A stretch of 64,000 nucleotides of DNA from Sinomonas sp. P10A9 (GTDB taxonomy: Bacteria; Actinomycetota; Actinomycetes; Actinomycetales; Micrococcaceae). The position numbers and the translations under genes were made by a program. A model generated the notes under the pieces. It worked only from the letters and a program-made list of their open reading frames with translations. It ran no database searches and was not told where the DNA came from. The stretch lies in the NCBI RefSeq assembly GCF_041022165.1, contig NZ_CP163302.1, positions 186,001 to 250,000 on the forward strand. Reading direction: 5' to 3'. Positions 35,992 to 49,017 of the stretch are shown piece after piece; the stretch's first letter is position 1; each line of letters begins with the position of its first letter.

Positions 35992-37299
35992 CTATTCTCC
36001 GATGCCCGACGCCGCGGGTTCCACAGCATCCTCGGTGGCGGTCCCGCGCCAGCGCGCGAGCGCCGTCATCCCGTGGAACACGATGAGCGCGGCGGCGGAG
36101 CCGAGCGCGATGCCCGCAAACGCGAGGCCGCCGAGTTTCCACGTGTAGTCGGCGATGCCGACGATGAGCGCCACGGCGGCGGTCGTGAGGTTGATCGGGT
36201 TGGAGAAGTTGACCCGGTTCTGCACCCAGATCTTCACGCCGAGCACACCGATCATGCCGTACAGCATCGTGGCCGCGCCCCCGAGCACGCCTGCCGGGAC
36301 GGTCGCGATGAGCTCACCGAACTTGGGTGAGAAGCTCAGCAGCAGTGCCGCGAGCCCGGCCACCCAGTAGGCGGCGGTCGAGTAGACCTTCGTTGCGGCC
36401 ATGACGCCGATGTTCTCCGCGTACGTTGTGGTGCCGGAGCCGCCGCCGAGGCCGGCGAGGACGGTCGCGGCGCCGTCGGCCATGAGGGCGCGGCCTGCCA
36501 TGTCGTCCAGGTTCTGCCCCGTCATCGCGGCGACGCTCTTGACGTGTCCCACGTTCTCGGCGACGAGGACGAGCACCACGGGCACGAACAACCCGAGCAC
36601 GCCCACGTTGAACGAGGGCGTCTGGAAGTGCGGCAGCCCGATCCACGCCGCCGCGTCGATGCGCGAGAAGTCGACCTCGCCACGCCATACGGCCACGAGG
36701 TATCCGACCACCACACCGACGAGGATGCTGAGCCGCCCCAGGATTCCGCGGAACAGCACGGAGACGAGGATGATCGCGAGCAGCGTGATCAGCGCGGTGA
36801 CCGGAGCGGCGTCGAAGTTCATCTTCGCGGCGGGCGCGAGGTTGAGCCCGATGAGCGCCACGATCGTGCCGGTCACAACGGGTGGCATGACGATGTTGAT
36901 CCAGTGCGCGCCGAACTTCTGGACCACCGCTCCGACCGCCGCGAGCACGACGCCGGCCACGACCACGCCGCCGAGCGCGCCGGCCACACCGAACTGCTGC
37001 TGGGAGGCGAGGATCGGGGCGATGAACGCGAAGGACGACCCGAGGTAGCTCGGCACCCGGCCCCGCGTGATCACGAGGAACAGGAGCGTGCCCACGCCCG
37101 AGAAGAACAGGGTCGTGGCGGGCGGCATGTGCGTGAGGATCGGCACGAGGAACGTCGCGCCGAACATCGCGACGACGTGCTGGAGGCCAACGCCGATCGT
37201 GATCGGCCACGCGAGCCGCTCCTGCGGGGCCACCACCTCGCCCGGCCTGATGGAGCGGCCGTCCCCGTGGAGCTTCCAGTTGGTTCCGAGCAGGCTCAT
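35992..37299 (-). CDS. NCS2 family uracil/xanthine permease
   Basis: A 435-residue, about 14-helix nucleobase:cation symporter. Family signatures: WPITIGVGLQHVVAMFGATF, VPSYLGSSFAFIAP, VLVLVAENVGHVKSVAAMTG (the Glu of helix 8) and GGGSGTTTYAENIGVMAATK (helix 10). This composition is closest to uracil permease (UraA type), but xanthine uptake is not excluded. It precedes idi in one transcription unit. Confidence 0.9.
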   Translation of the reverse strand: MSLLGTNWKLHGDGRSIRPGEVVAPQERLAWPITIGVGLQHVVAMFGATFLVPILTHMPPATTLFFSGVGTLLFLVITRGRVPSYLGSSFAFIAPILASQQQFGVAGALGGVVVAGVVLAAVGAVVQKFGAHWINIVMPPVVTGTIVALIGLNLAPAAKMNFDAAPVTALITLLAIILVSVLFRGILGRLSILVGVVVGYLVAVWRGEVDFSRIDAAAWIGLPHFQTPSFNVGVLGLFVPVVLVLVAENVGHVKSVAAMTGQNLDDMAGRALMADGAATVLAGLGGGSGTTTYAENIGVMAATKVYSTAAYWVAGLAALLLSFSPKFGELIATVPAGVLGGAATMLYGMIGVLGVKIWVQNRVNFSNPINLTTAAVALIVGIADYTWKLGGLAFAGIALGSAAALIVFHGMTALARWRGTATEDAVEPAASGIGE

Positions 37300-37375: not shown

Positions 37376-37801
37376 TCAGGAGTGCACCCACTTCACCACG
37401 TGACGGGCGACCGCGACCGCCTCTCCTTCCACGCGCGCCTCGACGGCCGCCGTGGCTCGCAGGGCGGCGGGGTCATACTCCTCCCACTCGTGGCGGAGCG
37501 CGAGAGTCTGCCCGGGGAATACCGGTTGGATGAACCGGATGCGGTCGTATCCAAGGGAAACCGGCGTGAACCCCTTCGGGCGCGCGTCCTCGAGGGCCCG
37601 CGCGGCGACCGCGGACATGAATCCGACGATGAGCGCCCCGTGGATCTGCCGCGTTCCGAATGGGGTGCCGCGCATGTACTCCTCGTCGGTGTGGTTGCTC
37701 GCGAAGTCGCCGGTGATCCCCGCGAAGAGCACGAGGTCCGTCTCGGTGACCGTCTTGCGGAAGACGGTCACGTGGCCGGGATCGAAGGGCGCGCTGTCCA
37801 T
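37376..37801 (-). CDS. MaoC-family (R)-hydratase/dehydratase
   Basis: A 141-residue hot-dog-fold hydratase. The catalytic Asp/His motif is seen as FAGITGDFASNHTDEEYM, followed by FGTRQIHGALIVG. Such enzymes hydrate enoyl-CoA esters. It is the last gene of the eleven-gene CoA-ester operon, 45 bases behind the SDR gene, and could supply a second hydration step for straight-chain products of ring opening. Confidence 0.88.
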   Translation of the reverse strand: MDSAPFDPGHVTVFRKTVTETDLVLFAGITGDFASNHTDEEYMRGTPFGTRQIHGALIVGFMSAVAARALEDARPKGFTPVSLGYDRIRFIQPVFPGQTLALRHEWEEYDPAALRATAAVEARVEGEAVAVARHVVKWVHS

Positions 37802-37846
37802 GTGGCTCCTGACGTGGTCGAGTTGGGTGGTCCGTGGAACGGGCAG

Positions 37847-38617
37847 CTACATCGTGAGCCCGCCGGAGACGGACAGCACCTGGCCGGTGGTGAATCCGGC
37901 CTCCGCCGAGGCGAGGTGCGCTATCGCCGCCGCCACCTCCTCGGGCCGTGCCGCCCGGCCCTTGGGCACGGCCCTGAGGGTCCCCGCCATGACCTTCCCC
38001 GTGAGGCCGTCGGCGGCGAGCATGCCCGCGAGGAGCCCGGTGTCGGTGGGGCCGGGGGAGACGACGTTGATCGTCACATCTGTGCGGGCGGTCTCGCGGG
38101 CCACGGCTCGCGCGAGCCCGTGCAGTCCCGCCCGCGCGGACGACGACGCGGCGTCGCCGAGGGTGCCCGCCTTGCCGCTGTCTGACCCGACGAGCACGAT
38201 CCGGCCGAATCCGGCCTCGACCATCTCGGGGAGGACGGCGCGGACGAGGAGCATCGGCCCGACGAGCTCGGTCCGGACGATGTCCTGGATGACGGCCGGA
38301 TCGGTCTTCGCGAGGATCTCCAAAGGGTGCCGGTGCCCGGTGGTCACGACGAGGGTGTCGATTCCCCCGAGCGCTGCGCCCGCGCTCCCGCCCGGCCCCG
38401 CGACGTCGTCCACCGATGCCGGATCCGCGGCATCCAGTCTCGCGGACCCGGCCCACGAGCCAGCCGGGAGCCGTGCGCCGAGGGCCGCCGCGCCGTCGTG
38501 ATCGGAGCGGTAGGTGCCGAACACGCGGGATCCCTCCGCGGCGAGCCGCAGCGCCACGGCGGCCCCGATCCCTCCCGTCCCCACGAGGAGGACCCGCCTT
38601 CCGCTGAAGGTCCCCAT
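37847..38617 (-). CDS. SDR-fold protein lacking the catalytic Tyr/Lys pair
   Basis: A 256-residue short-chain dehydrogenase-like protein. The cofactor motif VLLVGTGGIGAAVALRLA is present, and it ends with TGQVLSVSGGLTM, very like the BadH-type SDR of the same operon. However, where active SDRs have YxxxK (YSAAK in the BadH-like protein at 44471) this one reads SSSAR in DAASSSARAGLHGLARAV: Tyr is Ser and Lys is Arg. Catalysis by the normal route is unlikely. A structural or partner role with the other SDR is possible. Start ATG overlaps the preceding stop by one base (TGATG). Confidence 0.84.
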   Translation of the reverse strand: MGTFSGRRVLLVGTGGIGAAVALRLAAEGSRVFGTYRSDHDGAAALGARLPAGSWAGSARLDAADPASVDDVAGPGGSAGAALGGIDTLVVTTGHRHPLEILAKTDPAVIQDIVRTELVGPMLLVRAVLPEMVEAGFGRIVLVGSDSGKAGTLGDAASSSARAGLHGLARAVARETARTDVTINVVSPGPTDTGLLAGMLAADGLTGKVMAGTLRAVPKGRAARPEEVAAAIAHLASAEAGFTTGQVLSVSGGLTM

Positions 38618-39912
38618 CAGAACGCGGACCGCCCCGTCACCTTGCGCCCGATCAGGAGCGACTGGATGAACTCGGTGCCCTCGTAGGTGTGCACCACTTC
38701 CATGTCGGTGAGGTGCCTTGCCACGTGGAAGTCGAGCAGGAGGCCGTTGCCGCCGAGGAGGTCGCGGGCCTGCTGGGCGATCGTGCGCGCCTTGTTGGAG
38801 GTGTGCATCTTCGCGAGCGAGGCCATGGTCCCGCTCCACTTTCCGGCCTCCTGCAGCTCGGCCATGCGGAAGCAGATGAGCTGCATGGCCGTGAGCTCGG
38901 CGAGCATGGAGGCGAGCGTGGCCTGAACGAGCTGATAGGTCGCGATCGGTTGGCCGAACTGCTCGCGGACCTCCGTGTAGGCGACGGCGGCCTCGAAGCA
39001 CGCGATGCCGTGGCCGAGGGCCTCCCAGCTGGCGCCACCGCGCGTCGTCGCGAGCACGCGGGACGTGTCCTTGAAGCTGTTCGCTTCGGGGAGCCGATTG
39101 GCCTCGGGGATCCGCAGGCTGTCGAAGCCGAGGTCGGCCTGGAGGATGGCGCGCTTGCCGATCTTCCCGTCGATGGTTCGGGCCGAGAAGCCCTCCGGCA
39201 CGCTCTCGGGGTTGCGGGGGTCCTCGCGCTCCATGACGAAGGCCTTGACCTCGCCGTCGGCCTCGTCGCGGGCCCAGATGACCACGAGGTGCGCCATCGA
39301 GCCGTTGCCGATCCAGCGCTTGGCCCCGTTGATGACCCACGAGTCGCCATCGCGGCGGGCCGTCGTCTCGAGCTGCGCCGAGTCCGATCCGTGGCGCGGC
39401 TCGGTGAGGGCGAACGCGCCGATCTTCTCGAGCCGAACCATGCCGGGGAGCCAGCGTCCCTTCTGTTCCTCGGAGCCGAGCAGGTTGATGGTGCCCATGG
39501 TCAGGTTCGCCTGGACGCCGAGGAACGTGTTGACCGACCCGTCGCCGCGCGCGAGCTCCACTGTGGCGAGGCCCGCGGCCAGCCGCGAGAGCCCGGCCGC
39601 ACCGTGCCCGCGGATCACGCCGCCCACGAGGCCAGTCGCAGCGAGGTCCGGCAGGAGCTCCCACGGGAACTCGGCGCGCTCCCAGTACCCGTTGATCACC
39701 GGGAGCACCCGGGTGTCGACGAACGCGCGCATGCGTGCCCGGGCGTCCGCGGCGTCAGCCGGGAGGCCCCCGGCGAGGAGCAGGTAGTCGGTGTCCCGCG
39801 GGACCGTGAGGCGCTCGCGGAGCGCCGCGAGGTACTCGTCGGTCTCGGAGAATCCGGGTCCGGACCCCGGCCCGGACCCGGACTCGGCCACGCTGCTTGC
39901 CAGCTCACTCAT
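38617..39912 (-). CDS. Acyl-CoA dehydrogenase (glutaryl-CoA-dehydrogenase-like subgroup)
   Basis: A 431-residue FAD enzyme that introduces an alpha-beta double bond in an acyl-CoA. Signatures: FALTEPRHGSDSAQLETTA, WVINGAKRWIGNGSMAHLVV, DLLGGNGLLLDFHVARHLTD and VVHTYEGTEFIQSLLIGRKV, where the Glu of TYEGTE is the catalytic base position in this subgroup. The N-terminal 20 residues are Gly/Ser/Pro-rich. It starts inside the end of the 3-hydroxyacyl-CoA dehydrogenase gene (eight-base overlap, ATGAGTGA). It may act on pimeloyl-CoA or a shorter dicarboxylyl-CoA; this is inferred from the operon. Confidence 0.86.
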   Translation of the reverse strand: MSELASSVAESGSGPGSGPGFSETDEYLAALRERLTVPRDTDYLLLAGGLPADAADARARMRAFVDTRVLPVINGYWERAEFPWELLPDLAATGLVGGVIRGHGAAGLSRLAAGLATVELARGDGSVNTFLGVQANLTMGTINLLGSEEQKGRWLPGMVRLEKIGAFALTEPRHGSDSAQLETTARRDGDSWVINGAKRWIGNGSMAHLVVIWARDEADGEVKAFVMEREDPRNPESVPEGFSARTIDGKIGKRAILQADLGFDSLRIPEANRLPEANSFKDTSRVLATTRGGASWEALGHGIACFEAAVAYTEVREQFGQPIATYQLVQATLASMLAELTAMQLICFRMAELQEAGKWSGTMASLAKMHTSNKARTIAQQARDLLGGNGLLLDFHVARHLTDMEVVHTYEGTEFIQSLLIGRKVTGRSAF

Positions 39913-40762
39913 ACGTGTACCAACCCTTCCCGGTCTTGCGGCCGAACTCGCCGGCCTCGTATTTGGCCGTGACGAGCGGGTGGGGGAGGTCCTTCTCGTC
40001 CCCGGTCTGCCCATAGGCGGCCTGGCGGATGAGGTACGTGACGTCGAGGCCCACGAGGTCCATGAGCTCGAAGGGCCCCATCGGATAGCCCAGGGCATCC
40101 TTGGCCGCGGTGTCGATGTCCTCGAGGGACGCGACGCCGCCGGCATACAAGGCCAGCGCCTCGTCCCGCACCGCGCCCATGAGCCGGTTGGCGACGAAGC
40201 CGGGGATCTCCTTGTTCAGGAGCACCGGCGACTTGCCCATCGCCCGGGCCACCTCGACCACCGTCGCGACGGTCTCGTCCGAGGTCTGCGGGTTCCGCAC
40301 GATCTCCACGGCCCTCATCACCAGCGCCGGGTTGAAGAAGTGCATGTTGCAGACCTTCTCCGGGCGCCCGGTCGCGTCGGCGACCGTCGAGGAGGCCAGT
40401 GTGGAGGAGTTCGTCGCGAGGATCGCTTGGGCTGGCGCGAATGCGTCGAGCTCGGCGAAGATGGCCCGCTTGACCTCGAGCTTCTCCGTCGCGGCCTCGA
40501 TCACAAGGTCCGCGTCCGCGGCGGCCGCCGCGAGGTCGGTCGTGAACGCGATGCGCTCCCACGCGTCGGCGGCCTGGGCCTCGCCGAGCCGGCCCTTCGC
40601 GACCCGCCCGTCGAGCCAGCGGTGCATGTCCGCCTCCGCGGCGGAGACGGCCTCAGCGCTCACGTCTCGCACCGCCGTCGTGAATCCCGCGACGGCCGCC
40701 GCCATGCCGATCTGGCGGCCCATCGCTCCGGAGCCGACCACGAGGACTGTCCGCACGTCCAT
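39905..40762 (-). CDS. 3-hydroxyacyl-CoA dehydrogenase
   Basis: A 285-residue NAD-dependent enzyme oxidising 3-hydroxyacyl-CoA to 3-ketoacyl-CoA. It has the Rossmann motif VLVVGSGAMGRQIGMAAAVAG, IEAATEKLEVK, the catalytic-site signature NMHFFNPALVMRAVE (His/Asn), PGFVANRL and DLVGLDVTY. The length matches single-function PaaH/Hbd-type enzymes. Start at ATG 40762, or GTG 40771 overlapping the crotonase stop. In the operon it serves the beta-oxidation of the opened ring. Confidence 0.92.
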   Translation of the reverse strand: MDVRTVLVVGSGAMGRQIGMAAAVAGFTTAVRDVSAEAVSAAEADMHRWLDGRVAKGRLGEAQAADAWERIAFTTDLAAAAADADLVIEAATEKLEVKRAIFAELDAFAPAQAILATNSSTLASSTVADATGRPEKVCNMHFFNPALVMRAVEIVRNPQTSDETVATVVEVARAMGKSPVLLNKEIPGFVANRLMGAVRDEALALYAGGVASLEDIDTAAKDALGYPMGPFELMDLVGLDVTYLIRQAAYGQTGDEKDLPHPLVTAKYEAGEFGRKTGKGWYTYE

Positions 40763-40767
40763 GCCGC

Positions 40768-41538
40768 TCACCGTCCCGCGAATTCCGCGGGACGCTTGGC
40801 AAGGAACGCCGCGGCGCCCTCGGCCTTGTCCTCGGTCGTGTAGAGGAGGGTCTGCGCGAGCCTCTCGAGCAGGAGACCCGTCTTCTGGTCGGCATCGGCG
40901 CCCTGGCGGATCACCAGCTTGCCGAGCCGCACCGCGAGCGGGCCTTTGGAAAGGATGGTCGCGGCGGTCGCGGCGGCGGTCGCCCCGAGGTCCTCGCGAG
41001 GCACGACGGCGGTCACGAGCCCGTAGCGCTCGGCCTCGCCCGCCGTCAGCACCCGGCTCGTGAGGATCATCTCGACGGCGCGGCCGGTGCCGACAAGCCG
41101 CGTGAGCCGCTGGGTCCCGCCCGCGCCCGGGAGGACGCCGAGGGTCGCCTCGGGCAGGCCCATCTTCGTGCCGACGGCCGCGACGCGGATGTCGCAGCTC
41201 ATGGCGAGCTCGAGTCCCCCGCCCATCGCGACGCCGTTGAGCGCCGCGATCGTGGGCTTGGGGTAGTCCTCGATCCGGTCGTACAGCTTCTGCATGTGCG
41301 CGGCGAGCCCGTACGCGAGGTCGTAGCCCGCGAGCTGGGTGATGTCCGCGCCCGCCACGAAGGCCTTCTCGCCAGCGCCCGTGAAAACGACGGCTCCCAC
41401 GGACGCGTCGTCCTCCCACGCGTCCAGGACGGCGCCGATCTCGCCGAGCACGGTCTTCGAGAGGGCGTTGCGGACCTCGGGGCGGTTGACGGTGATGGTT
41501 CCGACGGCGCCGTCGAGGGACGTGGTAATGGTCTCCAT
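40768..41538 (-). CDS. Enoyl-CoA hydratase (BadK-like position in pathway)
   Basis: A 256-residue crotonase. Oxyanion-hole region FVAGADITQLAG, first Glu in NGVAMGGGLELAMSCDIR, second Glu in GLPEATLGVLPGAGGTQRL. Both catalytic glutamates are therefore present and hydratase activity is expected. In the known cyclohexanecarboxylate route this step hydrates cyclohex-1-ene-carboxyl-CoA (BadK); whether this enzyme does that or hydrates linear enoyl-CoA cannot be settled from sequence. It starts four bases after the dehydrogenase stop. Confidence 0.88.
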   Translation of the reverse strand: METITTSLDGAVGTITVNRPEVRNALSKTVLGEIGAVLDAWEDDASVGAVVFTGAGEKAFVAGADITQLAGYDLAYGLAAHMQKLYDRIEDYPKPTIAALNGVAMGGGLELAMSCDIRVAAVGTKMGLPEATLGVLPGAGGTQRLTRLVGTGRAVEMILTSRVLTAGEAERYGLVTAVVPREDLGATAAATAATILSKGPLAVRLGKLVIRQGADADQKTGLLLERLAQTLLYTTEDKAEGAAAFLAKRPAEFAGR

Positions 41539-41542
41539 GCCC

Positions 41543-42763
41543 CTACCGCCCCGCCGCCGCGAAGGCCCCGACGCCCGTGAGCGCGCGGCCGAGGATGAGC
41601 GCGTGCACCTCGTCAGTGCCCTCGTACGTCCGCACGGACTCGAGGTTGTTCGCGTGGCGCAGCGGGGAGTGGTCCAGCGTGATCCCGTTGCCGCCGAGCA
41701 TCTCGCGGGCGTCCCGCGCGATGCGGATGGCCTCGCGGCAGTTGTTCAGCTTGCCCACCGAGATCATGGTCGGGTTGAGGGTCCCGGCGTCCTTGGCGCG
41801 GCCGATCTGGAGCGCGAGGAGGTAGCCCTTGTTGATCTCGAGCGCCATGTCCGCGAGTTTGGCCTGGGTCAGCTGGAACGCGGAGAGCGGCATCCCGAAC
41901 TGGGTCCGCTCGGAGCTGTAGCGCAGCACTTCCTCGAAGCTGTCCCGCGCGGCGCCCATGGCGCCCCAGATGATCCCGTAGCGGGCCTCGTTGAGGCAGG
42001 CGAAGGGGCCCTTGAGGCCGATCGCGCTCTCGCCCGGGAGGATCGCGTCGGCGGGGAGCCGGACGTCTTCGAGCGTGATGTCGCATTGGACCGAAGCGCG
42101 CATCGACAGTTTGGGCTCGATCGCCACGGCGTGGAAGCCGGGCGTGTCGGTGGGGACTACGAACCCGCGCACGCCGCGGGCATCGCCGTGCTCGCCCGTC
42201 TGGGCCCAGATGATCGCGACGTCGGCGAGCGTCGCGAGGCCGATCCACCGCTTGGCGCCGTTGAGCACCCAGTCGCCGCCCGGCTCCTGCACCGCGGTGG
42301 TGCGCATCGAGGCCGGGTCCGAGCCCGCCGTCGGCTCCGTCAGCCCGAAGCAGCCGACGGCGCGTCCCGCCGCCATCTCGGGCAGCCAGTGCTGCTTCTG
42401 CTCCTCGGAGCCGTGCTTGTGGATCGCGGACATCGCGAGCGAGCCCTGGACCGAGACGAAGGTGCGCAGGCCGGAGTCGCCGGCCTCGAGCTCCGAGGCC
42501 GCGAGACCGTACATGACGGCGGAGCGCCCCGCGCAGCCGTAGCCCGTCAGGTGCATGCCGAGGAGGCCGAGCTTCGCGAGCTCGGGGATGATCTCGCGGG
42601 GGAAGACGGCCTGCTCGTACCAGCCGGCGATGTTCGGGCGGATGTGCGTGTCGACGAGGTCGCGGACCGCGCGGGCCAGGTCCTTCTCCTCGGCGGTGAG
42701 CTGGGCGTCGAGGCCCGTGAGGTCGGCTGGCCCGAAGACCGAGCCGCTGCTGTGCGTGGTCAC
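41543..42763 (-). CDS. Glutaryl-CoA dehydrogenase-like acyl-CoA dehydrogenase
   Basis: A 406-residue FAD enzyme. The sequences LTEPTAGSDPASMRTTA, GAKRWIGLATLADVAIIWAQ, KLNNCREAIRIARDAREMLG and LRHANNLESVRTYEGTDEVH are those of the glutaryl-CoA dehydrogenase family, which oxidises and decarboxylates glutaryl-CoA to crotonyl-CoA. That is the expected lower step after pimeloyl-CoA is shortened by one beta-oxidation turn. The GTG start overlaps the CoA ligase stop by four bases (GTGA). Confidence 0.87.
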   Translation of the reverse strand: MTTHSSGSVFGPADLTGLDAQLTAEEKDLARAVRDLVDTHIRPNIAGWYEQAVFPREIIPELAKLGLLGMHLTGYGCAGRSAVMYGLAASELEAGDSGLRTFVSVQGSLAMSAIHKHGSEEQKQHWLPEMAAGRAVGCFGLTEPTAGSDPASMRTTAVQEPGGDWVLNGAKRWIGLATLADVAIIWAQTGEHGDARGVRGFVVPTDTPGFHAVAIEPKLSMRASVQCDITLEDVRLPADAILPGESAIGLKGPFACLNEARYGIIWGAMGAARDSFEEVLRYSSERTQFGMPLSAFQLTQAKLADMALEINKGYLLALQIGRAKDAGTLNPTMISVGKLNNCREAIRIARDAREMLGGNGITLDHSPLRHANNLESVRTYEGTDEVHALILGRALTGVGAFAAAGR

Positions 42764-44430
42764 GCCTTTGCCTCCTGGCTGAATTCCTCCGACAGCTCCT
42801 GCCGGATCTTGAACTTCTGGATCTTGCCGCTCGGGGTCCGCGGGAAGTCGGCGACGACCTTGAGGATCTCCGGCCAGTACGGCTTGGCGAGGCCCTTCGT
42901 TTCGAGGAATGCCCTGAGGTCCTCGAGCGTGAATGGGTCGGCGTCCTTGAGCTGGACCACGGCGCCGCCGATCTCCTGGAGACGGGGGTGCGGGACTGCG
43001 ACGAGCGCGACGGCGGCGATCCGCGGGTGCTCGTAGAGGACGTTCTCCACGTAGGCCACGGGGACGTTCTCGCCGCCGCGCACGATGATGTCCTTGGTGC
43101 GGCCTGCGAGCCGCACGTACGAGTCATCGTCCTGCGTGCCGAGGTCGCCGGTGTCGAACCAGTCGCCGTCGAACTCGTTCCGCGTCACGTCGAGCTGCTC
43201 GAGGTAGCCGCGGAAGAGGAACGGGCCGCGCACCTGGATCCGGCCCTCGGTTCCCGCCGGCACGGCGCGGCCCTGGTCGTCGACGATCCGCAGCTTCATG
43301 CCGGGAAGCACGCGGCCGTCGGAGTCGAGGACCTTTTCGACGGGGTCCTGCGGGCTGCCCATCGTCACGAGGCAACATTCGGTCTGGCCCCACCCGCCGA
43401 ACACGTTCAGGGCTGGGAGCTTGTCCTTCGCGGCGTGCACGACGGCGCGGGGGATCGGCGCCCCCATGCAACAGAAGCGCACGAGGCTCGAGAGGTTGTG
43501 GTCCGCGAGGTTCTGCGCGGTCAGGATGTCCTGGAGGAACGGCGTGGCGCCTGAGGTGTGCTGTATGCCGTGCCTCTCCACAAGCTCCACGAATTCGGCG
43601 GCCTGCCAGACCTCCTGAAAGACCCCCGTGGCGCCGAGCATGATGGGGAGCGCGACGCCGAAGAGGTAGCCCGTGAGGTGGCCGAACGTCGAGGCCATGT
43701 GGATCACCGAGGAGTCGTCCATCCCGAGCCGGTCCGGCCACGGGAGCGCACCCGAGAGGACGGTGTTGTGGCTGTGCATGGCACCCTTGGGGCGTCCCGT
43801 CGTGCCCGAGGTGAACATGATGAGCGCGAGCGAGTCCGGGTCGGGGCGCCGCGCGGCGGCCTCCTGGGCGGAGAGCCCGCGGGCCCGGCCGCGCCCGGCG
43901 AGGTCCGACCACGAGAGGAAACCCTCGGGTGCTCGAGCCGGTGCGGGACCCGTTCCGAGCACGACGGCGTGCTGCAGGTCCGTGAGTCCGCCGCGGAGCC
44001 GCTCGATCATCGCAGGATAGTCGAAGCCCCGGAACGTCTCAGGGATGAAGATGACCTTGGCGCGGGCCTTCTTGGCCATGTACTCGATCTCGCGATCGCG
44101 GTAGATAGGGATGAGCGCGTTGGTCACCGCGCCGACGCGCTCGGTGGCGAGGTGGGCGACGATCCACTCGTGCCGGTTCGGCAGCTGGATCGAGACGGTG
44201 TCCCCGGCATCGACGCCGAGGGAGACGAGTCCAGCCGCGATGGCCTCGACCTCGTCCGCCATCTCGCGGTAGGTCTTGGCGCCGGAGGCGTCGATCGAGG
44301 CAACCTTGTCGGGGTGCGCCGCAACGGCGTCGTCAAAGTAGTCGATGAGGAGACGGTCCTTCCAGTACCCGGTGGTCCTGAAGTCCGCCGCGTTCTCCGG
44401 CAGCGGAAGCATCTCGAAGGGCGAGCTCAT
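42760..44430 (-). CDS. aliA: AMP-forming acyl-CoA ligase, AliA-like (cyclohexanecarboxylate-CoA ligase)
   Basis: A 556-residue adenylate-forming enzyme that activates a carboxylic acid to its CoA ester. Core motifs: MFTSGTTGRPKGAMHSH (A3), FGGWGQTECCLVT (A5), GDWFDTGDLGTQDDDSYVRL (A7/A8) and PRTPSGKIQKFKIR with the C-terminal catalytic Lys (A10). The N-terminus FRTTGYWKDRLLIDYFDD is similar to cyclohexanecarboxylate-CoA ligases. The flanking BadH-, AliB- and BadI-like genes support that substrate. A branched or aromatic acid substrate remains possible. Confidence 0.85.
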   Translation of the reverse strand: MSSPFEMLPLPENAADFRTTGYWKDRLLIDYFDDAVAAHPDKVASIDASGAKTYREMADEVEAIAAGLVSLGVDAGDTVSIQLPNRHEWIVAHLATERVGAVTNALIPIYRDREIEYMAKKARAKVIFIPETFRGFDYPAMIERLRGGLTDLQHAVVLGTGPAPARAPEGFLSWSDLAGRGRARGLSAQEAAARRPDPDSLALIMFTSGTTGRPKGAMHSHNTVLSGALPWPDRLGMDDSSVIHMASTFGHLTGYLFGVALPIMLGATGVFQEVWQAAEFVELVERHGIQHTSGATPFLQDILTAQNLADHNLSSLVRFCCMGAPIPRAVVHAAKDKLPALNVFGGWGQTECCLVTMGSPQDPVEKVLDSDGRVLPGMKLRIVDDQGRAVPAGTEGRIQVRGPFLFRGYLEQLDVTRNEFDGDWFDTGDLGTQDDDSYVRLAGRTKDIIVRGGENVPVAYVENVLYEHPRIAAVALVAVPHPRLQEIGGAVVQLKDADPFTLEDLRAFLETKGLAKPYWPEILKVVADFPRTPSGKIQKFKIRQELSEEFSQEAKA

Positions 44431-44470
44431 GGTGATGTCCGTTCGGCTAGTGAGGCAGGGGAGGGCGTGC

Positions 44471-45217
44471 TCACGCCATCGTGAGTCCGCCGGAGACCGA
44501 GAGGGTCTGGCCGGTGATGAACGCAGCCTCGTCCGAGGCCAGGAAGGCCACGGCGTTGGCGAGGTCCTCGGGCTGGGCCAGGCGGCGCAGCGGGATGGAC
44601 TTCTCGAGCGCGGCGCGCAGCTTCGGGTTCTCGGCGCTGATCCCTGCGAAGAGCGGGGTATCGGCGGGCCCGGGGCACACGCAGTTCACGGTGAAGCCCT
44701 GGCGGGCGGTCTCGCGGGCGAGGGTCTTGCTGAAGGAGATGATGCCGCCCTTCGCCGCGGAGTAGACGGCCTCGCCCGAGGAGCCGACCCGGCCGGCGTC
44801 GGACGCGATGTTCACGACCGTGGCCCGCTCCTGGCCCGCCACCGCGCGCAGGAACGCCTGGCTGCAGTGCAGCGTGCCGTACAGGTTGATCGCGACGACG
44901 CGGTCCCAGTCGGCGACGTCGCTGTCCACGAACGGGCCGACCTTGTCCCAGCCGGCGTTGTTCACGAGCACGTCGATCCGCCCGAACTCGGCCTGCACGG
45001 CGCGGACCATCTCGTCCACCGACTCGCGCGACGTGACGTCGGTCCGCACGCCAATGGACCTGTTGCCCAGCGCCGCGGCGGTCTCCTTCGCGGCGGGCTC
45101 GTTGAGGTCGCTCACGACGACGGTCGCGCCCTCGGCGGCGAGCTTGGTGGCGATGCCCTTGCCGATGCCGGAGGCACCGCCGGTGACGATCGCGATCTTG
45201 TTCTCGAGCTTTCCCAT
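44471..45217 (-). CDS. badH: 2-hydroxycyclohexanecarboxyl-CoA dehydrogenase-like SDR (BadH type)
   Basis: A 248-residue SDR with complete active site: TGGASGIGKGIA (cofactor), NNAGWD, NIASDAGRVGSSGEAVYSAA (Ser and Tyr) and the following Lys. The NNAGWD...GSSGEAVY...VCPGPADTPL and TGQTLSVSGGLTM sequences agree closely with what is known of BadH, the enzyme oxidising 2-hydroxy- to 2-ketocyclohexanecarboxyl-CoA. Start at ATG 45217 (MGKLENKIAIVTGG). It lies between the ligase and the AliB-like dehydrogenase. Confidence 0.88.
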   Translation of the reverse strand: MGKLENKIAIVTGGASGIGKGIATKLAAEGATVVVSDLNEPAAKETAAALGNRSIGVRTDVTSRESVDEMVRAVQAEFGRIDVLVNNAGWDKVGPFVDSDVADWDRVVAINLYGTLHCSQAFLRAVAGQERATVVNIASDAGRVGSSGEAVYSAAKGGIISFSKTLARETARQGFTVNCVCPGPADTPLFAGISAENPKLRAALEKSIPLRRLAQPEDLANAVAFLASDEAAFITGQTLSVSGGLTMA

Positions 45218-45246
45218 GATTCTCCTTGGCGTGGTGAGTGCGGGGC

Positions 45247-46392
45247 TCACGGCGCGTAGGCGCGGCCCGCGATGTTCCTGGCGATGATCATCTTCATGAT
45301 CTGGGCGGTTCCGTCGCCGATCTGCAGGCCCAGGACGTCCCGGAGGCGCTGCTCGATCGGCTTGTCCGTGCGGTAGCCGAACTGGCCGTGCAGGAGGAGG
45401 CAGGAGTTGATGACGTCATAGGAGGTCTTCGGTGCCCACCACTTGCACATCGCGGCCTGGGCCGTGTGGGGGAGGCCGTTGTCCTTGAGCCACAGGGTCT
45501 GGTGGCATAGGAGCCGGGCCGCGCTCAGGAGCGTCTCGCTCTCGGCGAGCGGGAACGCGACGCCCTGGAACCTGCTCAGCGGCTGGTCGAAGGCGACACG
45601 CCCCTTGACGTACTCCCACGTCTCCTCGACCGTGGCCGCCGCGGTGCCGATGCACTGCAGGCCGATGAGGGCCCGCGAGAAGTCGAACCCCTGCATGACC
45701 TGGGTGAACCCCTGGTCCTCGGCGCCGAGGAGGTGATCGTCAGGGATCCAGGCGTTCGAGTAGTGGGCGAAGCCGCGGGTCACGGCCTTCGTGCCCATGT
45801 CGTCCACGGCCTCGAGCTCGATGCCGTCGGCGTGCAGGTCCGTGATGAACGCGCTGATTCCGCGGCCGCGGCCCTGGCCGTGGTCAGTCTTCGCGAAGAC
45901 GACAGCGGCGTCCGCCTGGAGGGCGAAGGACATCGACTTGGTCCCGTTCAGGACCCAGCCGCCGCGCTCGCGGCGGGCCGTGAGGGAGGGACTGCCGGCG
46001 TCGGAGCCGGCGGTCGGCTCAGACAGGCCAATCGCCACGATCCCCTCGCCGCTCGTGATGCGCGGGACCCAGCGGGCGGCGACCTCCGGGGTCGCGTTGC
46101 TCGCGAGGATCTGCCCCACGAGGGAGCCGACCACCTGGACGTACGCGACATTGAAGTCGCCGCGGGCGATCTCCTCCGTGATGAGGCCGGACGTGAGGCG
46201 CTGCTCGCTCCGGCCGCCGAACTCGACGGGGAGCTCGGGGGCGATGAGGCCGCGCCCGCCCATCTCGCGGCGCAGCTCGGGTTCGATGCGCCGGTCCGTC
46301 TCGCGCTGCTTGTAGCCGGGGGCGATCTGGTCCGCGACCTCGCGGGCTTCCTTAATGAACTGCTGCTGGGATTCTGTGAACGTGAAGTCCAT
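45247..46392 (-). CDS. aliB: Cyclohexanecarboxyl-CoA dehydrogenase-like acyl-CoA dehydrogenase (AliB type)
   Basis: A 381-residue FAD enzyme. Motifs: IGLSEPTAGSDAGSPSLTA, GGWVLNGTKSMSFALQADAA, LLHGQFGYRTDKPIEQRLRD and GDGTAQIMKMIIARNIAGR. The usual Glu catalytic base of TYEGT is absent in the C-terminal IGDGTAQI, where Asp takes its place, which is a known feature of cyclohexanecarboxyl-CoA-type dehydrogenases. It would form cyclohex-1-ene-carboxyl-CoA. Starts at ATG 46392, 49 bases after the BadI-like gene. Confidence 0.85.
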   Translation of the reverse strand: MDFTFTESQQQFIKEAREVADQIAPGYKQRETDRRIEPELRREMGGRGLIAPELPVEFGGRSEQRLTSGLITEEIARGDFNVAYVQVVGSLVGQILASNATPEVAARWVPRITSGEGIVAIGLSEPTAGSDAGSPSLTARRERGGWVLNGTKSMSFALQADAAVVFAKTDHGQGRGRGISAFITDLHADGIELEAVDDMGTKAVTRGFAHYSNAWIPDDHLLGAEDQGFTQVMQGFDFSRALIGLQCIGTAAATVEETWEYVKGRVAFDQPLSRFQGVAFPLAESETLLSAARLLCHQTLWLKDNGLPHTAQAAMCKWWAPKTSYDVINSCLLLHGQFGYRTDKPIEQRLRDVLGLQIGDGTAQIMKMIIARNIAGRAYAP

Positions 46393-46441
46393 GGCGTTCG
46401 CTGCTCTTTTCTCGACGCTGAGGTGGGGGCGGGGTGGGGTC

Positions 46442-47299
46442 CTAGTGGTACTGGACCTTGCTGGCGAAGTCCGGAGTGCGCTTCTCGGCGAACGCCGCGG
46501 CGCCCTCGGCGCCCTCGGGCGAGGCGACGAAGAGGTCGAGGGCGGACATCGCGAGGTTGCTCAGGCCCGCCTGGTGGTCGGTGTCCGCGTTGAAGGACTG
46601 CTTGAGGAAGCGGATCGCCGTCGGGCTCTTCTCGGCGATCTCGTCGGCCCAGTCCATCGCCTCGTCCATGAGGCGCTCGGGCTCGACCACCGTGTTGGCG
46701 AGGCCCCAGCGCTCGGCGGTCGCGGCGTCGTACAGGCGGCACAGGTACCAGATCTCGCGGGCGCGCTTCTCGCCCACCACGCGGGCGAGGTAGGCCGAGC
46801 CGAACCCGGCGTCGAACGATCCGACGCGCGGGCCGGCCTGCCCGAAGCGGGCGGTGGAGGACGCGATCGTGAGGTCGCACAGGACGTGCAGCACGTGGCC
46901 GCCGCCCACCGCGACGCCGTTGACGGCCGCAATGACGGGCTTCGGGATGTCCCGGATTAACTTGTGGAGGTTGCCGATCTCGAACATGCCGGACTCGGTG
47001 GACCCGTAGTCGCCCGTCTCGGCGCGCTGCTTCACGTCGCCGCCCGTGCAGAAGGCCTTCTCGCCGGCACCCGTGAGGATCACGGCCTGCACGCCGTGGT
47101 CCGCCCACGCGAGCCGGAACGCCTTGATGAGCTCTTCGACGGTCTTGCCGCGGAACGCGTTGTAGCGCTCGGGGCGATTGATGGTGATGATCGCGGCGGC
47201 GTTGCGGCGCTCGTAGACGACATCCTCGAACGCGGGAACGGCGGGCGCGGCCGTGGCCCTCGAGCTCGAGGTGGTGGCGGTGGTGGTCTGGTCTGTCAT
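46442..47299 (-). CDS. badI: 2-ketocyclohexanecarboxyl-CoA hydrolase-like crotonase (BadI type)
   Basis: A 285-residue crotonase-fold enzyme. Its sequence FEDVVYERRNAAAIITINRP, AFCTGGDVKQRAETGDYG, VNGVAVGGGHVLHVLCDLTI, FGQAGPRVGSFDAGFGSAYL and WYLCRLYDAATAERWGLANT match the BadI/MenB branch (the GSFDAG loop and the GGGHVLHVLCDL region). BadI hydrolytically opens the ring of 2-ketocyclohexanecarboxyl-CoA to pimeloyl-CoA. The about 22 N-terminal residues are Thr/Ser/Ala-rich. It is the first enzyme gene after the regulator. Confidence 0.87.
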   Translation of the reverse strand: MTDQTTTATTSSSRATAAPAVPAFEDVVYERRNAAAIITINRPERYNAFRGKTVEELIKAFRLAWADHGVQAVILTGAGEKAFCTGGDVKQRAETGDYGSTESGMFEIGNLHKLIRDIPKPVIAAVNGVAVGGGHVLHVLCDLTIASSTARFGQAGPRVGSFDAGFGSAYLARVVGEKRAREIWYLCRLYDAATAERWGLANTVVEPERLMDEAMDWADEIAEKSPTAIRFLKQSFNADTDHQAGLSNLAMSALDLFVASPEGAEGAAAFAEKRTPDFASKVQYH

Positions 47300-47309
47300 G
47301 GCTGTCCTT

Positions 47310-47978
47310 TCAGGCGAGGTTGCCGAGGAGGTCTGCGTACGCGGCCCGGTGCTCGGGCGGGATCACGGAGGAGAGGGCGAGCGCGGTGTGCTCGGCCACG
47401 TACTGCTCGTGGGTCATGAAGCGGCCGAAGTACCAGTGCTTGAGGGCCCACAGGTGGGCCGTGGTCAGGAGGCCGTAGGCGAAGACCTGCAGGTTGACGT
47501 CCCGGATGAGGCCGGCATCGAACGCGTCGCGGGCCGCCGCGATGAGCGGTCCTGCGCTCTCGACCTCGAGGTTCTTGATGGTCTCGCGTCCCTCGGGCTC
47601 AAGGGTCTTGGACTCCTGGTAGGCCAGGACGGCTGCCTCGCGGAGCTCCTGCACCACGGCGCAGTACCCCGCGAACGCCGCAGCGATGCGGCGCACTGGA
47701 TCGGCCTGGTCCGCGATTGCCGAGGCCACGCGCACGCTGAACTCGTGCAGCACGTCCTCGATCACGGCCTGCACGAGTTCCTGCTTGTTGCCGAAGTAGC
47801 GGTAGATGAGCCCAACGCTCACGCCGGCCTCGTCTGCCACATTCTGCATCGAGACGGACTGCGATCCCGCCCCGCCGAGGAGGTGGGCTGCGGCATTGAG
47901 CAGCTGCCTCCTGCGGGAGTCGACGAGCGCGGAACGTGCTGCCTCCGCGGCGTCGTTGCGGGCTTCGCTGGTCTGCAT
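47310..47978 (-). CDS. TetR-family regulator of the CoA-ester operon
   Basis: A 222-residue regulator. DNA-binding domain: RRRQLLNAAAHLLGGAGSQS, then VSMQNVADEAGVSVGLIYRY and FGNKQELVQAVIED. The ligand domain resembles those of fatty-acid and CoA-ester-responsive TetR proteins. GGAGG precedes ATG 47978. It is the first gene of the operon, ten bases before the BadI-like gene, so it controls its own expression and that of all ten enzymes through the palindromes at 48005-48041. Confidence 0.92.
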   Translation of the reverse strand: MQTSEARNDAAEAARSALVDSRRRQLLNAAAHLLGGAGSQSVSMQNVADEAGVSVGLIYRYFGNKQELVQAVIEDVLHEFSVRVASAIADQADPVRRIAAAFAGYCAVVQELREAAVLAYQESKTLEPEGRETIKNLEVESAGPLIAAARDAFDAGLIRDVNLQVFAYGLLTTAHLWALKHWYFGRFMTHEQYVAEHTALALSSVIPPEHRAAYADLLGNLA

Positions 47979-48004: not shown

Positions 48005-48041
48005 TTGAATTTGTATTCAATGTGAATGAAGCTTCATTCAC
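48005..48041. promoter_or_regulatory. Two adjacent palindromes in front of the tetR-badI operon
   Basis: TTGAAT-TTGT-ATTCAA (48005-48020) and the perfect 20-base palindrome GTGAATGAAGCTTCATTCAC (48022-48041) lie side by side, 27 bases before the tetR start. The block is AT-rich in a GC-rich genome. Size and symmetry fit TetR operators. The region is shared with the divergent nitroreductase gene, which may be under the same control. Confidence 0.72.
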
Positions 48042-48197
48042 TCGCTTCAGACTAGTGAGGCCCGTCACGCCGGTCAAGGGTCTCTTGGCGCGAATGTGGG
48101 GGATGTCACCGCTCGAAGCGGGAAGCGAAACGAATGACGGCGGGTTGTCGACTGATGGAGAACGGTCGCCCGGGCCGTCGCAAGGAGTTGACCCCGC

Positions 48198-48800
48198 ATG
48201 AGCATCGCGCACCAGGAGGCTGTCCTCGACGCCGCCGCAGTCGACGCACTCTTCACCGAGGCCCGCACGGCGAACACGTTCACCGGCGAGGTGACCGAGG
48301 AGCAGGCGCAGGCCATCTACGAGCTCGCCAAGTTCGGCCCGACAGCGTTCAACAACCAGCCGCTGCGCGTCACGTTCGTCCGCTCGGCCGAGGCCCGCGG
48401 GCGCCTCGTGCAGCACATGAGCCGCGGCAACCAGGCCAAGACACTCGCCGCCCCCCTCGTCGCGGTGCTCGCGTTCGATACCGAGTGGCACGAGCACTTC
48501 GAGACGTTCCTCCCGCAGGCAGCCGGGCTGAAGGCGATGTTCGACGACGACGTGGTCCGCTACGGCACCGGCCGCGACAACGCCCACCTCCAGGCCGGGT
48601 ACTTCATCCTCGCCGTTCGCTCCCTCGGTCTCGCCGCTGGCCCCATGACTGGCGCGGACTTCTCCGCGATCGACGCCGACTTCTTCCCCGGGGGCGGCCG
48701 CAAGAGCTTCCTCGTGGTCAACATCGGCCGCCCCGGCGAGGACGCATGGGGCCCCGCGAAGACCAAGTTCGCGTACGAGGACGTCGTCGAGACCGTCTGA
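48198..48800 (+). CDS. Nitroreductase family protein, malonic-semialdehyde-reductase (RutE) type
   Basis: A 200-residue FMN-dependent reductase. Motifs: KFGPTAFNNQPLRVTFVRSA (FMN and substrate site), AVLAFDTEWHEHFETFLPQA and LGLAAGPMTGADFSAIDADF. The pattern GPTAFNNQP and the GPMTGFD-like block are characteristic of the RutE/HadB group, which reduces malonic semialdehyde to 3-hydroxypropionate. It diverges from the cyclohexanecarboxylate-type operon by 219 bases; a link is possible but not shown. Confidence 0.87.
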   Translation: MSIAHQEAVLDAAAVDALFTEARTANTFTGEVTEEQAQAIYELAKFGPTAFNNQPLRVTFVRSAEARGRLVQHMSRGNQAKTLAAPLVAVLAFDTEWHEHFETFLPQAAGLKAMFDDDVVRYGTGRDNAHLQAGYFILAVRSLGLAAGPMTGADFSAIDADFFPGGGRKSFLVVNIGRPGEDAWGPAKTKFAYEDVVETV

Positions 48801-48835
48801 GAAGAAGGCCCTCCAGCCGCGCACGACCTCCGCGC

Positions 48836-49017
48836 AAGACCTGACCCCGCACCCACAAGACGTGACCGCGCACCCACGGGAGCTGACCCCCCCACCCGCA
48901 AGACCCCCCACCCACAGGAGCTGACCCCGCACCTTTGCTGGGTCACCTCTCAACGTTGTGGGGTCAAGTCCCTAGGTTGCGGGGTCACCTCTCACGGAAG
49001 CGGGGTCACGTCTCGAC
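48836..49017. repeat. 21-bp repeat arrays in opposite orientation between convergent genes
   Basis: Right array: four exact 21-base units from 48934 (TTTGCTGGGTCACCTCTCAA), 48955, 48976 and 48997 (GAAGCGGGGTCACGTCTCGA). Left array (48836-48933): about five units in the opposite orientation, such as AAGACCTGACCCCGCACCCA, some shortened. The right array runs into the 3' end of the MFS gene and encodes its last residues RRDVTPLP. Confidence 0.78.

Follow-up and report, generated by a model that had tools for sequence, protein, structure and literature searches.

Gene clusters of the bad-ali type, which open the ring of cyclohexanecarboxylate (CHC), an oil-type pollutant, are known from Aromatoleum sp. 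CIB and Rhodopseudomonas palustris, and strain CIB no longer grows on CHC, aerobically or anaerobically, once badHI is deleted (PMC9795900). The genes aabA, aabBCD and gcdH are associated with bad-ali in proteobacteria, and badK is missing from many of the clusters. In the authors' view, aab functions lost in Aromatoleum may be taken over by a paralogous cluster (PMC9795900). Clusters in Rhodococcus and Corynebacterium are also on record, C. terpenotabidum and C. efficiens being among those listed in the Figure 6 legend, and a TetR gene usually lies in the same direction in the Gram-positive clusters (PMC9795900). In R. aetherivorans BCP1, expression of the chcpca cluster rises approximately 70-290-fold on cyclohexanecarboxylic acid and 180-800-fold on cyclopentanecarboxylic acid relative to succinate (PMC5906575), and in the papers cited here the account of naphthenic-acid ring opening in actinobacteria rests mainly on this one Rhodococcus cluster type. 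Here, a stretch of 64,000 bp (the window; coordinates 186001–250000 of contig NZ_CP163302.1, hereafter C1) from the one-contig, 4.29-Mb genome of Sinomonas sp. P10A9, which is 99.98% complete, was found to carry eleven genes that probably constitute an aerobic, TetR-repressed bad-ali operon for CHC or a close alicyclic acid.

The eleven genes are adjacent on the minus strand and run from tetR (starting at window position 47978) to maoC (ending at 37376). They encode, in order, TetR, BadI-, AliB-, BadH- and AliA-like proteins, a glutaryl-CoA dehydrogenase (GCDH)-like protein, a crotonase, a 3-hydroxyacyl-CoA dehydrogenase, a second acyl-CoA dehydrogenase (ACAD2), a second short-chain dehydrogenase (SDR2) and a MaoC-like hydratase. 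The intergenic gaps are 10, 49, 40, 4, 5 and 45 bases and the overlaps 4, 4, 8 and 1 bases, in line with the gaps of up to 50 bases and overlaps of 1–8 bases described in an earlier interpretation made from the letters of the DNA (the sequence-only reading), and Pfam agreed with the superfamily that it had named for each of the 11 proteins. A simple codon-bias gene caller recovered seven of the 11 genes as given, with longer starts for tetR and ACAD2 and with overlapping frames displacing the 3-hydroxyacyl-CoA dehydrogenase and SDR2, and the models of these four genes therefore rest on Pfam and orthologues.

The upper-pathway proteins were compared with curated NCBIfam models and placed in phylogenetic trees. 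The best model for AliA (coordinates 42760–44430), the predicted cyclohexanecarboxylate-CoA ligase, was TIGR03208 with 499.7 bits (cut-off 792.3; next best model 404.3), and that for AliB (45247–46392), the predicted cyclohexanecarboxyl-CoA dehydrogenase, was TIGR03207 with 477.3 bits (cut-off 575.35; next best 230.9). BadH (44471–45250), predicted to be a 2-hydroxycyclohexanecarboxyl-CoA dehydrogenase, was best matched by TIGR03206 (306.8 bits; cut-off 431.2) and has an intact catalytic tetrad, N-S-Y-K. AliA falls in a clade of 19 rows shared with the AliA of Gram-negative bad-ali clusters and AliB in one of 21 rows shared with the corresponding AliB, each with a support of 99 in the SH-like approximate likelihood ratio test (SH-aLRT). 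The ligase and dehydrogenase of Rhodococcus and Gordonia are placed elsewhere in both trees, which were built from selected family rows, MenE-like rows having been thinned beforehand for AliA. A reference locus from Pandoraea (L070), included in both clades, served as a yardstick and exceeds all four upper-pathway cut-offs (BadI 539.3, AliB 707.9, AliA 897.9 and BadH 450.3 bits), while in a Pseudomonas locus (L048) BadI and AliB lie above the cut-off and AliA and BadH below it. The motif IGDGTAQIMK, which has Asp at the position of the Glu of GCDH, was present in AliB in all 12 rows of the clade of the window protein (nine of the operon type, including the window, and three from loci that retain only aliB and badH) and in six of eight Gram-negative rows, L075 being off by one letter and L081 having unread letters; the Rhodococcus and Gordonia proteins read IYGGTTEIMK.

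BadI (46442–47299), the predicted ring-opening 2-ketocyclohexanecarboxyl-CoA hydrolase, belongs to a 12-row actinobacterial clade (support 96) with proteins from Rhodococcus, Gordonia and Mycobacterium dioxanotrophicus. This clade was separated at 99 from the rows labelled as MenB, a label that was taken from context for the eleven rows, of which the one scanned (L042) passed. The BadI of locus L162 was not in the tree, the gene itself being intact. A separate MenB is encoded elsewhere in the genome (C1:3280201–3280977; 552.2 bits, above the cut-off of 378). The idea that BadI is a misplaced MenB is opposed by the tree split and by this separate gene, but the scores from hidden Markov models (HMMs) on their own lean slightly towards MenB. 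The sequence-only reading had proposed to compare these proteins with the characterised enzymes by phylogeny, and AliA and AliB proved to lie inside the CHC clades; less firmly, BadI lay apart from MenB in the tree, in a clade of its own. A BadI with 82% identity to that of the window was also seen, with a BadH-like short-chain dehydrogenase (SDR), on the M. dioxanotrophicus plasmid NZ_CP020811.1 (locus L013, 11992–13534), where badI adjoins groL and genes for an NDMA-dependent alcohol dehydrogenase and an aldehyde dehydrogenase.

The lower-pathway genes lie downstream of aliA. The best PDB matches of the GCDH-like protein (41543–42763) were chains named glutaryl-CoA dehydrogenase (3swo, 508.4 bits; 3sf6, 501.7 bits), and its alignment to solved GCDH showed an Arg aligned with Arg94 of human GCDH as well as the catalytic Glu. 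A second GCDH, 75% identical, is encoded at C1:3744434–3745645. ACAD2 (38617–39912; PF00441, PF02771 and PF02770), a candidate pimeloyl-CoA dehydrogenase, has Asn at the position equivalent to Arg94, and its best match was peroxisomal acyl-CoA oxidase 4 (311.7 bits), followed by a putative GCDH (301.8 bits). The single crotonase of the unit (40768–41538; PF00378, 201.6 bits) matched generic enoyl-CoA hydratase models only, and is predicted to have the role of BadK and/or of a 2,3-dehydropimeloyl-CoA hydratase. It is followed by the 3-hydroxyacyl-CoA dehydrogenase (39905–40762; PF02737, 195.5 bits; PF00725, 108.4 bits). In a bad-ali cluster of Sinirhodobacter hankyongi (L075, 12094–15825), a long frame after the cluster matches both a crotonase and a 3-hydroxyacyl-CoA dehydrogenase, arranged as the two separate genes are in the window. 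No thiolase gene was found within the eleven-gene unit. Twelve matches to the thiolase N-terminal family were found in the genome, eight of them with at least 160 bits, so that this absence calls for no particular explanation and a thiolase could readily be supplied from elsewhere.

An AliB orthologue was found at E <= 1e-100 in 24 of 395 genomes of the family, including that of P10A9, and SDR2 at E <= 1e-45 in 13, of which 12 are among the 24 with AliB. When the eleven proteins were mapped by tblastn onto the other 23 AliB loci, the full gene order was found in seven of the 24 (including the window and one locus of the same species), indicating that the arrangement is not due to chance. SDR2 is the sole absentee in L159 and MaoC (37376–37801; PF01575, 61.8 bits; present in eight of the 24 loci) in L161–L163, and both are missing in L167, L169 and L170. 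Two loci, L171 and L172, consist of tetR-badI-aliB-badH-aliA-crotonase-SDR2, and L174 of the first five genes. L175 and L176 are on short contigs and are cut by the contig ends, while two further loci, L018 and L019, duplicate L172 and L158, respectively. In the uncut loci that have the core, the genes for GCDH, 3-hydroxyacyl-CoA dehydrogenase and ACAD2 occur as a set or not at all, and the tally of loci thus defines tetR-badI-aliB-badH-aliA as the core. In L164–L166, L168 and L173, all from one genus (g20), the upper set is reduced to aliB and badH, with a GCDH-type gene kilobases further on in four of them; no badI, aliA, tetR or paired operator was found nearby, and these loci may represent a reduced or different use of AliB and BadH. 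At the level of the phylum, the AliB clade was found at E <= 1e-110 in one of 396 genomes of the phylum, that of P10A9 itself, but this sample is thin, as the BadI matches name Microbacterium, Corynebacterium, Gordonia and others. Named relatives of the operon proteins also come from Arthrobacter rhombi, Citricoccus and Tersicoccus.

The distribution bears on whether the unit could be a general beta-oxidation operon for dicarboxylic or fatty acids that has recruited a MenB-like protein and is not ring-specific. Five of its ten enzymes (the GCDH-like protein, crotonase, 3-hydroxyacyl-CoA dehydrogenase, ACAD2 and MaoC) match generic or unrelated models only, and BadI fits the BadI model no better than it fits MenB models, as would be expected of such an operon. 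However, the CHC models were the best for AliA and AliB by a wide margin in the bit scores given above, and the five-gene core persists in L171, L172 and L174, which lack GCDH, 3-hydroxyacyl-CoA dehydrogenase and ACAD2, making a general function very improbable.

The genetic context of tetR (47310–47978; PF00440, 55.5 bits), the predicted repressor gene and the first gene in 18 of the 24 loci, includes a pair of operator-like boxes on the minus strand. Box 1 (TGAATGAAGCTTCA; 48027–48040) and box 2 (TGAATACAAATTCA; 48006–48019) are 21 bp apart and both conform to a conserved TGAA-N6-TTCA. Upstream of them are a putative -35 element, TTGACC (48072–48077), and, after a 17-bp spacer, a putative -10 element, TAGTCT (48049–48054), which is a weak match to the consensus, with the pair beginning eight bases past it. 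In 17 of the 18 tetR-led loci, TTGAC lies no more than 45 nt upstream of the operator, though a promoter scan called no promoter, these elements included. Scored as matches over 16 fixed positions, the pair reached 15–16 in 18 of 18 tetR-led loci of the family and was perfect in 16, whereas the background, taken as the downstream remainder of the same loci on one strand, did not exceed 12. Scores were 8–9 in the five loci with only aliB and badH, and 9 and 10 in two loci where the contig starts near badI. A perfect pair (16/16) also precedes badI in Rhodococcus phenolicus (L021), and Gordonia has one perfect box with a decayed second one (12/16, against its own background of 11) and another single box before tetR. 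In the P10A9 genome, the exact pair occurs in one place and single exact boxes at seven others, compared with five for a reversed-pattern control, the search covering exact boxes and not degenerate pairs. The possibility that the missing thiolase is under the same operator was dropped on these counts and on the lack of a second exact pair. The spacing of the boxes equals two helical turns, which suggests that a TetR dimer occupies each box next to the other, probably over the promoter, and we infer that TetR represses the operon and would be released by a pathway intermediate, most likely an acyl-CoA ester.

From the gene content and orthology described above, the substrate and order of steps would be as follows. 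AliA would form the CoA ester of CHC or of a closely related alicyclic acid, AliB would produce the 1-ene and the crotonase would hydrate it, after which BadH would oxidise the 2-hydroxyl and BadI would open the ring to give pimeloyl-CoA. ACAD2, the crotonase and the 3-hydroxyacyl-CoA dehydrogenase may then carry out a turn of beta-oxidation, for which the thiolase would come from another part of the genome, and glutaryl-CoA (or pimeloyl-CoA) could be used by the GCDH-like enzyme. The CHC ring-opening role given to the operon by the sequence-only reading is therefore largely supported, its outline holding while details are revised: the AliA and AliB clades uphold it, while the profile cut-offs do not and BadI is less firm.

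Several observations weigh against this assignment. None of the four upper-pathway proteins passed its curated NCBIfam equivalog cut-off, and the operon is for this reason filed as a divergent variant and not as an equivalog. BadI, with 324.7 bits on the BadI model TIGR03210 (cut-off 467.6), scored higher on the MenB model PRK07396 (345.6 bits; cut-off 380), and a Bacillus MenB reached 344.7 bits on the BadI model. The HMM scores thus lend no support to the identity of BadI, which is carried solely by the tree, the neighbouring genes and the separate MenB in the genome. Four rows at a greater distance (L014, L031, L033 and L063) also have the Asp of the AliB motif, and the trees were made by a quick method, without bootstrap, contain no Rhodopseudomonas or Aromatoleum protein and have long branches outside the clades quoted. 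Since AliA and AliB of Rhodococcus and Gordonia are not orthologous to those of the window (27–29% identity, other clades), transfer of the induction result from strain BCP1 is weakened. The link to the BCP1 cluster through the operator depends on R. phenolicus and on Gordonia, the latter with a score scarcely higher than its background.

What speaks most strongly against CHC as the only or natural substrate, however, is a complete-looking chc gene set for an aromatising route in the same genome, outside the window (C1:1117186–1129179; L228). Its products exceed their curated cut-offs (ChcB1 445.5/400, ChcB2 409.9/350, ChcC1 1005.2/1000 and ChcC2 1023.8/900 bits), and the surrounding genes encode a P450, a ferredoxin, a ferredoxin reductase, an MFS transporter and an IclR protein. 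The chc route may then take CHC, leaving the operon for a substituted or other alicyclic acid such as cyclopentanecarboxylate or a cyclohexane carboxylate with an alkyl or alkenyl substituent. All four bad-ali proteins falling below their cut-offs would fit such a division, as would the response of the BCP1 cluster to cyclopentanecarboxylate (PMC5906575) and the role in the use of monoterpenes suggested for the badKHI set of Aromatoleum (PMC9795900). Among 15 genomes of the genus, AliB was found in five and ChcB2 in seven, and four genomes (two of them from one species) have both, so that ChcB2 accompanies AliB in four of five cases. However, AliB is not accompanied by ChcB2 in one genome (G037), and three others have only ChcB2, indicating that the two are not a fixed pair, and AliA and AliB adjoin CHC enzymes in the trees. 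A dedicated role for another acid is on balance unlikely, and an operon that serves CHC or a close relative is preferred.

SDR2 (37847–38617), the product of the tenth gene, is a degenerate paralogue of BadH. Its best NCBIfam model was that of BadH (TIGR03206, 164.2 bits), but the catalytic Asn-Ser-Tyr-Lys reads Glu-Ser-Ser-Arg (E-S-S-R) in 15 of 15 rows from 13 distinct loci, while Tyr and Lys are kept in 29 of 29 BadH rows (24 N-S-Y-K and five S-S-Y-K). The five S-S-Y-K rows all come from the loci with only aliB and badH. SDR2 has 553 database relatives, and among the best 120 of these the top 92 have E-S-S-R (91) or Q-S-S-R (1), and the remaining 28 have N-S-Y-K (25), D-S-Y-K (1) or E-S-S-R (2). 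A relative named as Sinomonas notoginsengisoli is 86% identical. Two distant relatives, P0223 and P0234 (41% identity), also have E-S-S-R and may represent a second lineage of inactive BadH-like SDRs. The ratio of nonsynonymous to synonymous substitution rates was 0.14–0.27 against seven relatives, within the range of the neighbouring genes, showing that SDR2 is under purifying selection. An AlphaFold2 model had a confident SDR fold (mean predicted local distance difference test score, pLDDT, 91.8), and a fold search with it listed classical SDRs, the FabG type among them, without any more specific match. A profile search of the 396 phylum genomes gave matches in 125, and no row of the SDR2 type was seen among the 29 loci read, of which 23 had N-S-Y-K, five were in the wrong frame and one (L207) was in the wrong stretch.

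The simplest reading is that SDR2 is a conserved pseudoenzyme, perhaps a non-catalytic partner of BadH. The extra SDR, together with MaoC, had been taken as a sign of a branch or a modified substrate, but as the catalytic Tyr and Lys are lost in every row of SDR2 orthologues this SDR says little in favour of a branch. Altered enzyme chemistry, with Glu, Ser and Arg as catalytic residues and SDR2 acting with MaoC in a side branch or on another stereoisomer, would be in keeping with the fixed replacements, the predicted SDR fold and the nucleotide-binding loop, which is retained in an altered form (G-x-G-G-x-G). On the other hand, no nearby Tyr replaces the lost one in the alignments, and we know of no SDR with Ser and Arg in place of Tyr and Lys. 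MaoC is missing in five of the 12 SDR2-bearing AliB loci (L161–L163, L171 and L172) and occurs without SDR2 in L159, indicating that there is no fixed SDR2–MaoC branch. Altered chemistry is thus distinctly improbable.

A partnership of the proposed pseudoenzyme with BadH would resemble BbsCD of toluene degradation, which von Horsten et al. are said to have described as a heterotetrameric SDR with inactive pseudoenzyme subunits. In both, two SDRs, one inactive, are co-encoded in a CoA-ester degradation pathway, and in the window the SDR without catalytic Tyr and Lys is conserved alongside a BadH with an intact tetrad. The substrate differs, and for the window SDRs the likeness is one of sequence pattern. 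The last 21 aligned residues of SDR2 and BadH are 81% identical, compared with 37% overall; the C-terminal stretch of classical SDRs helps to form the oligomer but is also conserved among SDRs generally, so this is a weak point. SDR2 is kept with the upper pathway in L171 and L172, though GCDH, 3-hydroxyacyl-CoA dehydrogenase and ACAD2 are missing. Counting against a partnership, L159, L167, L169, L170 and L174 lack SDR2, and one genome (G266) has SDR2 without AliB. It is therefore only a tentative suggestion, and rather less than an even one, that SDR2 is a dedicated dead subunit of 2-hydroxycyclohexanecarboxyl-CoA dehydrogenase in a BadH–SDR2 hetero-oligomer and a second BbsCD-like case. SDR2 nonetheless offers a clean candidate case of such a subunit within CoA-ester catabolism.

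On the same strand, a gene for an NCS2-type permease (35992–37299) begins 76 bases past maoC. The three terminator-like sites found in a scan (2.4 expected by chance) are all on the plus strand and inside the operon, and as there is none between maoC and the permease gene, the latter may be read through from the operon. Divergent from tetR on the plus strand is an open frame (48134–48844) without a Pfam match, and a similar start is found upstream of tetR in L154 and L155.

Compared with the bad-ali clusters of Aromatoleum sp. CIB and R. palustris, the window operon has relatives of AliA, AliB, BadH and BadI and likewise keeps genes for the lower beta-oxidation steps in or adjoining the cluster; its predicted chemistry is also the oxygen-independent one that serves aerobic growth as well in strain CIB (PMC9795900). 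It differs in having a single direction of transcription with the lower genes in the same unit, in the added, apparently inactive BadH paralogue and MaoC, and in the lack of an internal thiolase. The joining of upper and lower steps, which the sequence-only reading had proposed, is confirmed by the gene content and is already known in proteobacteria (PMC9795900). As this and a Gram-positive bad-ali operon are both in print (PMC9795900, PMC5906575), the operon is a variant and not a new system. No inactive BadH paralogue in a Gram-positive cluster was found in the literature covered, which excluded most subscription papers.

Two relatives of the Rhodococcus chcpca cluster (PMC5906575, PMC4591350), in R. 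phenolicus (L021) and Gordonia paraffinivorans (L022), have a BadI with ~81%, a BadH with 49–52% and a TetR with ~43% identity to those of the window. However, their ligase (27–28%) and acyl-CoA dehydrogenase (~29%) belong to other subfamilies, and no relative of the 3-hydroxyacyl-CoA dehydrogenase, SDR2 or MaoC was found in them at the thresholds used. The window operon supplies an actinobacterial AliA and AliB of the proteobacterial type. The BadI of C. terpenotabidum is 83% identical to that of the window over 93% of its length. The chc cluster of Sinomonas cyclohexanicum (Yamamoto et al. 2021), the genes of which are also in the P10A9 genome, serves the same substrate class by P450 hydroxylation and desaturation to 4-hydroxybenzoate without opening of a CoA-ester ring (PMC9795900), a chemistry unrelated to that predicted for the operon, and the two gene sets in one genome would permit comparison of the aromatising and ring-opening routes within one cell.

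Regulation also separates the window operon, with its TetR and TGAA-N6-TTCA pair, from the clusters of Aromatoleum and Rhodopseudomonas, in which a MarR-type BadR acts with CAAN4TTG (PMC9795900). That published operator is Gram-negative, and none for a Gram-positive bad-ali cluster was found in the same coverage of the literature. The pair, which R. phenolicus shares, is hence a candidate addition to what is known of bad-ali clusters, and one that can be tested in the Gram-positive ones.

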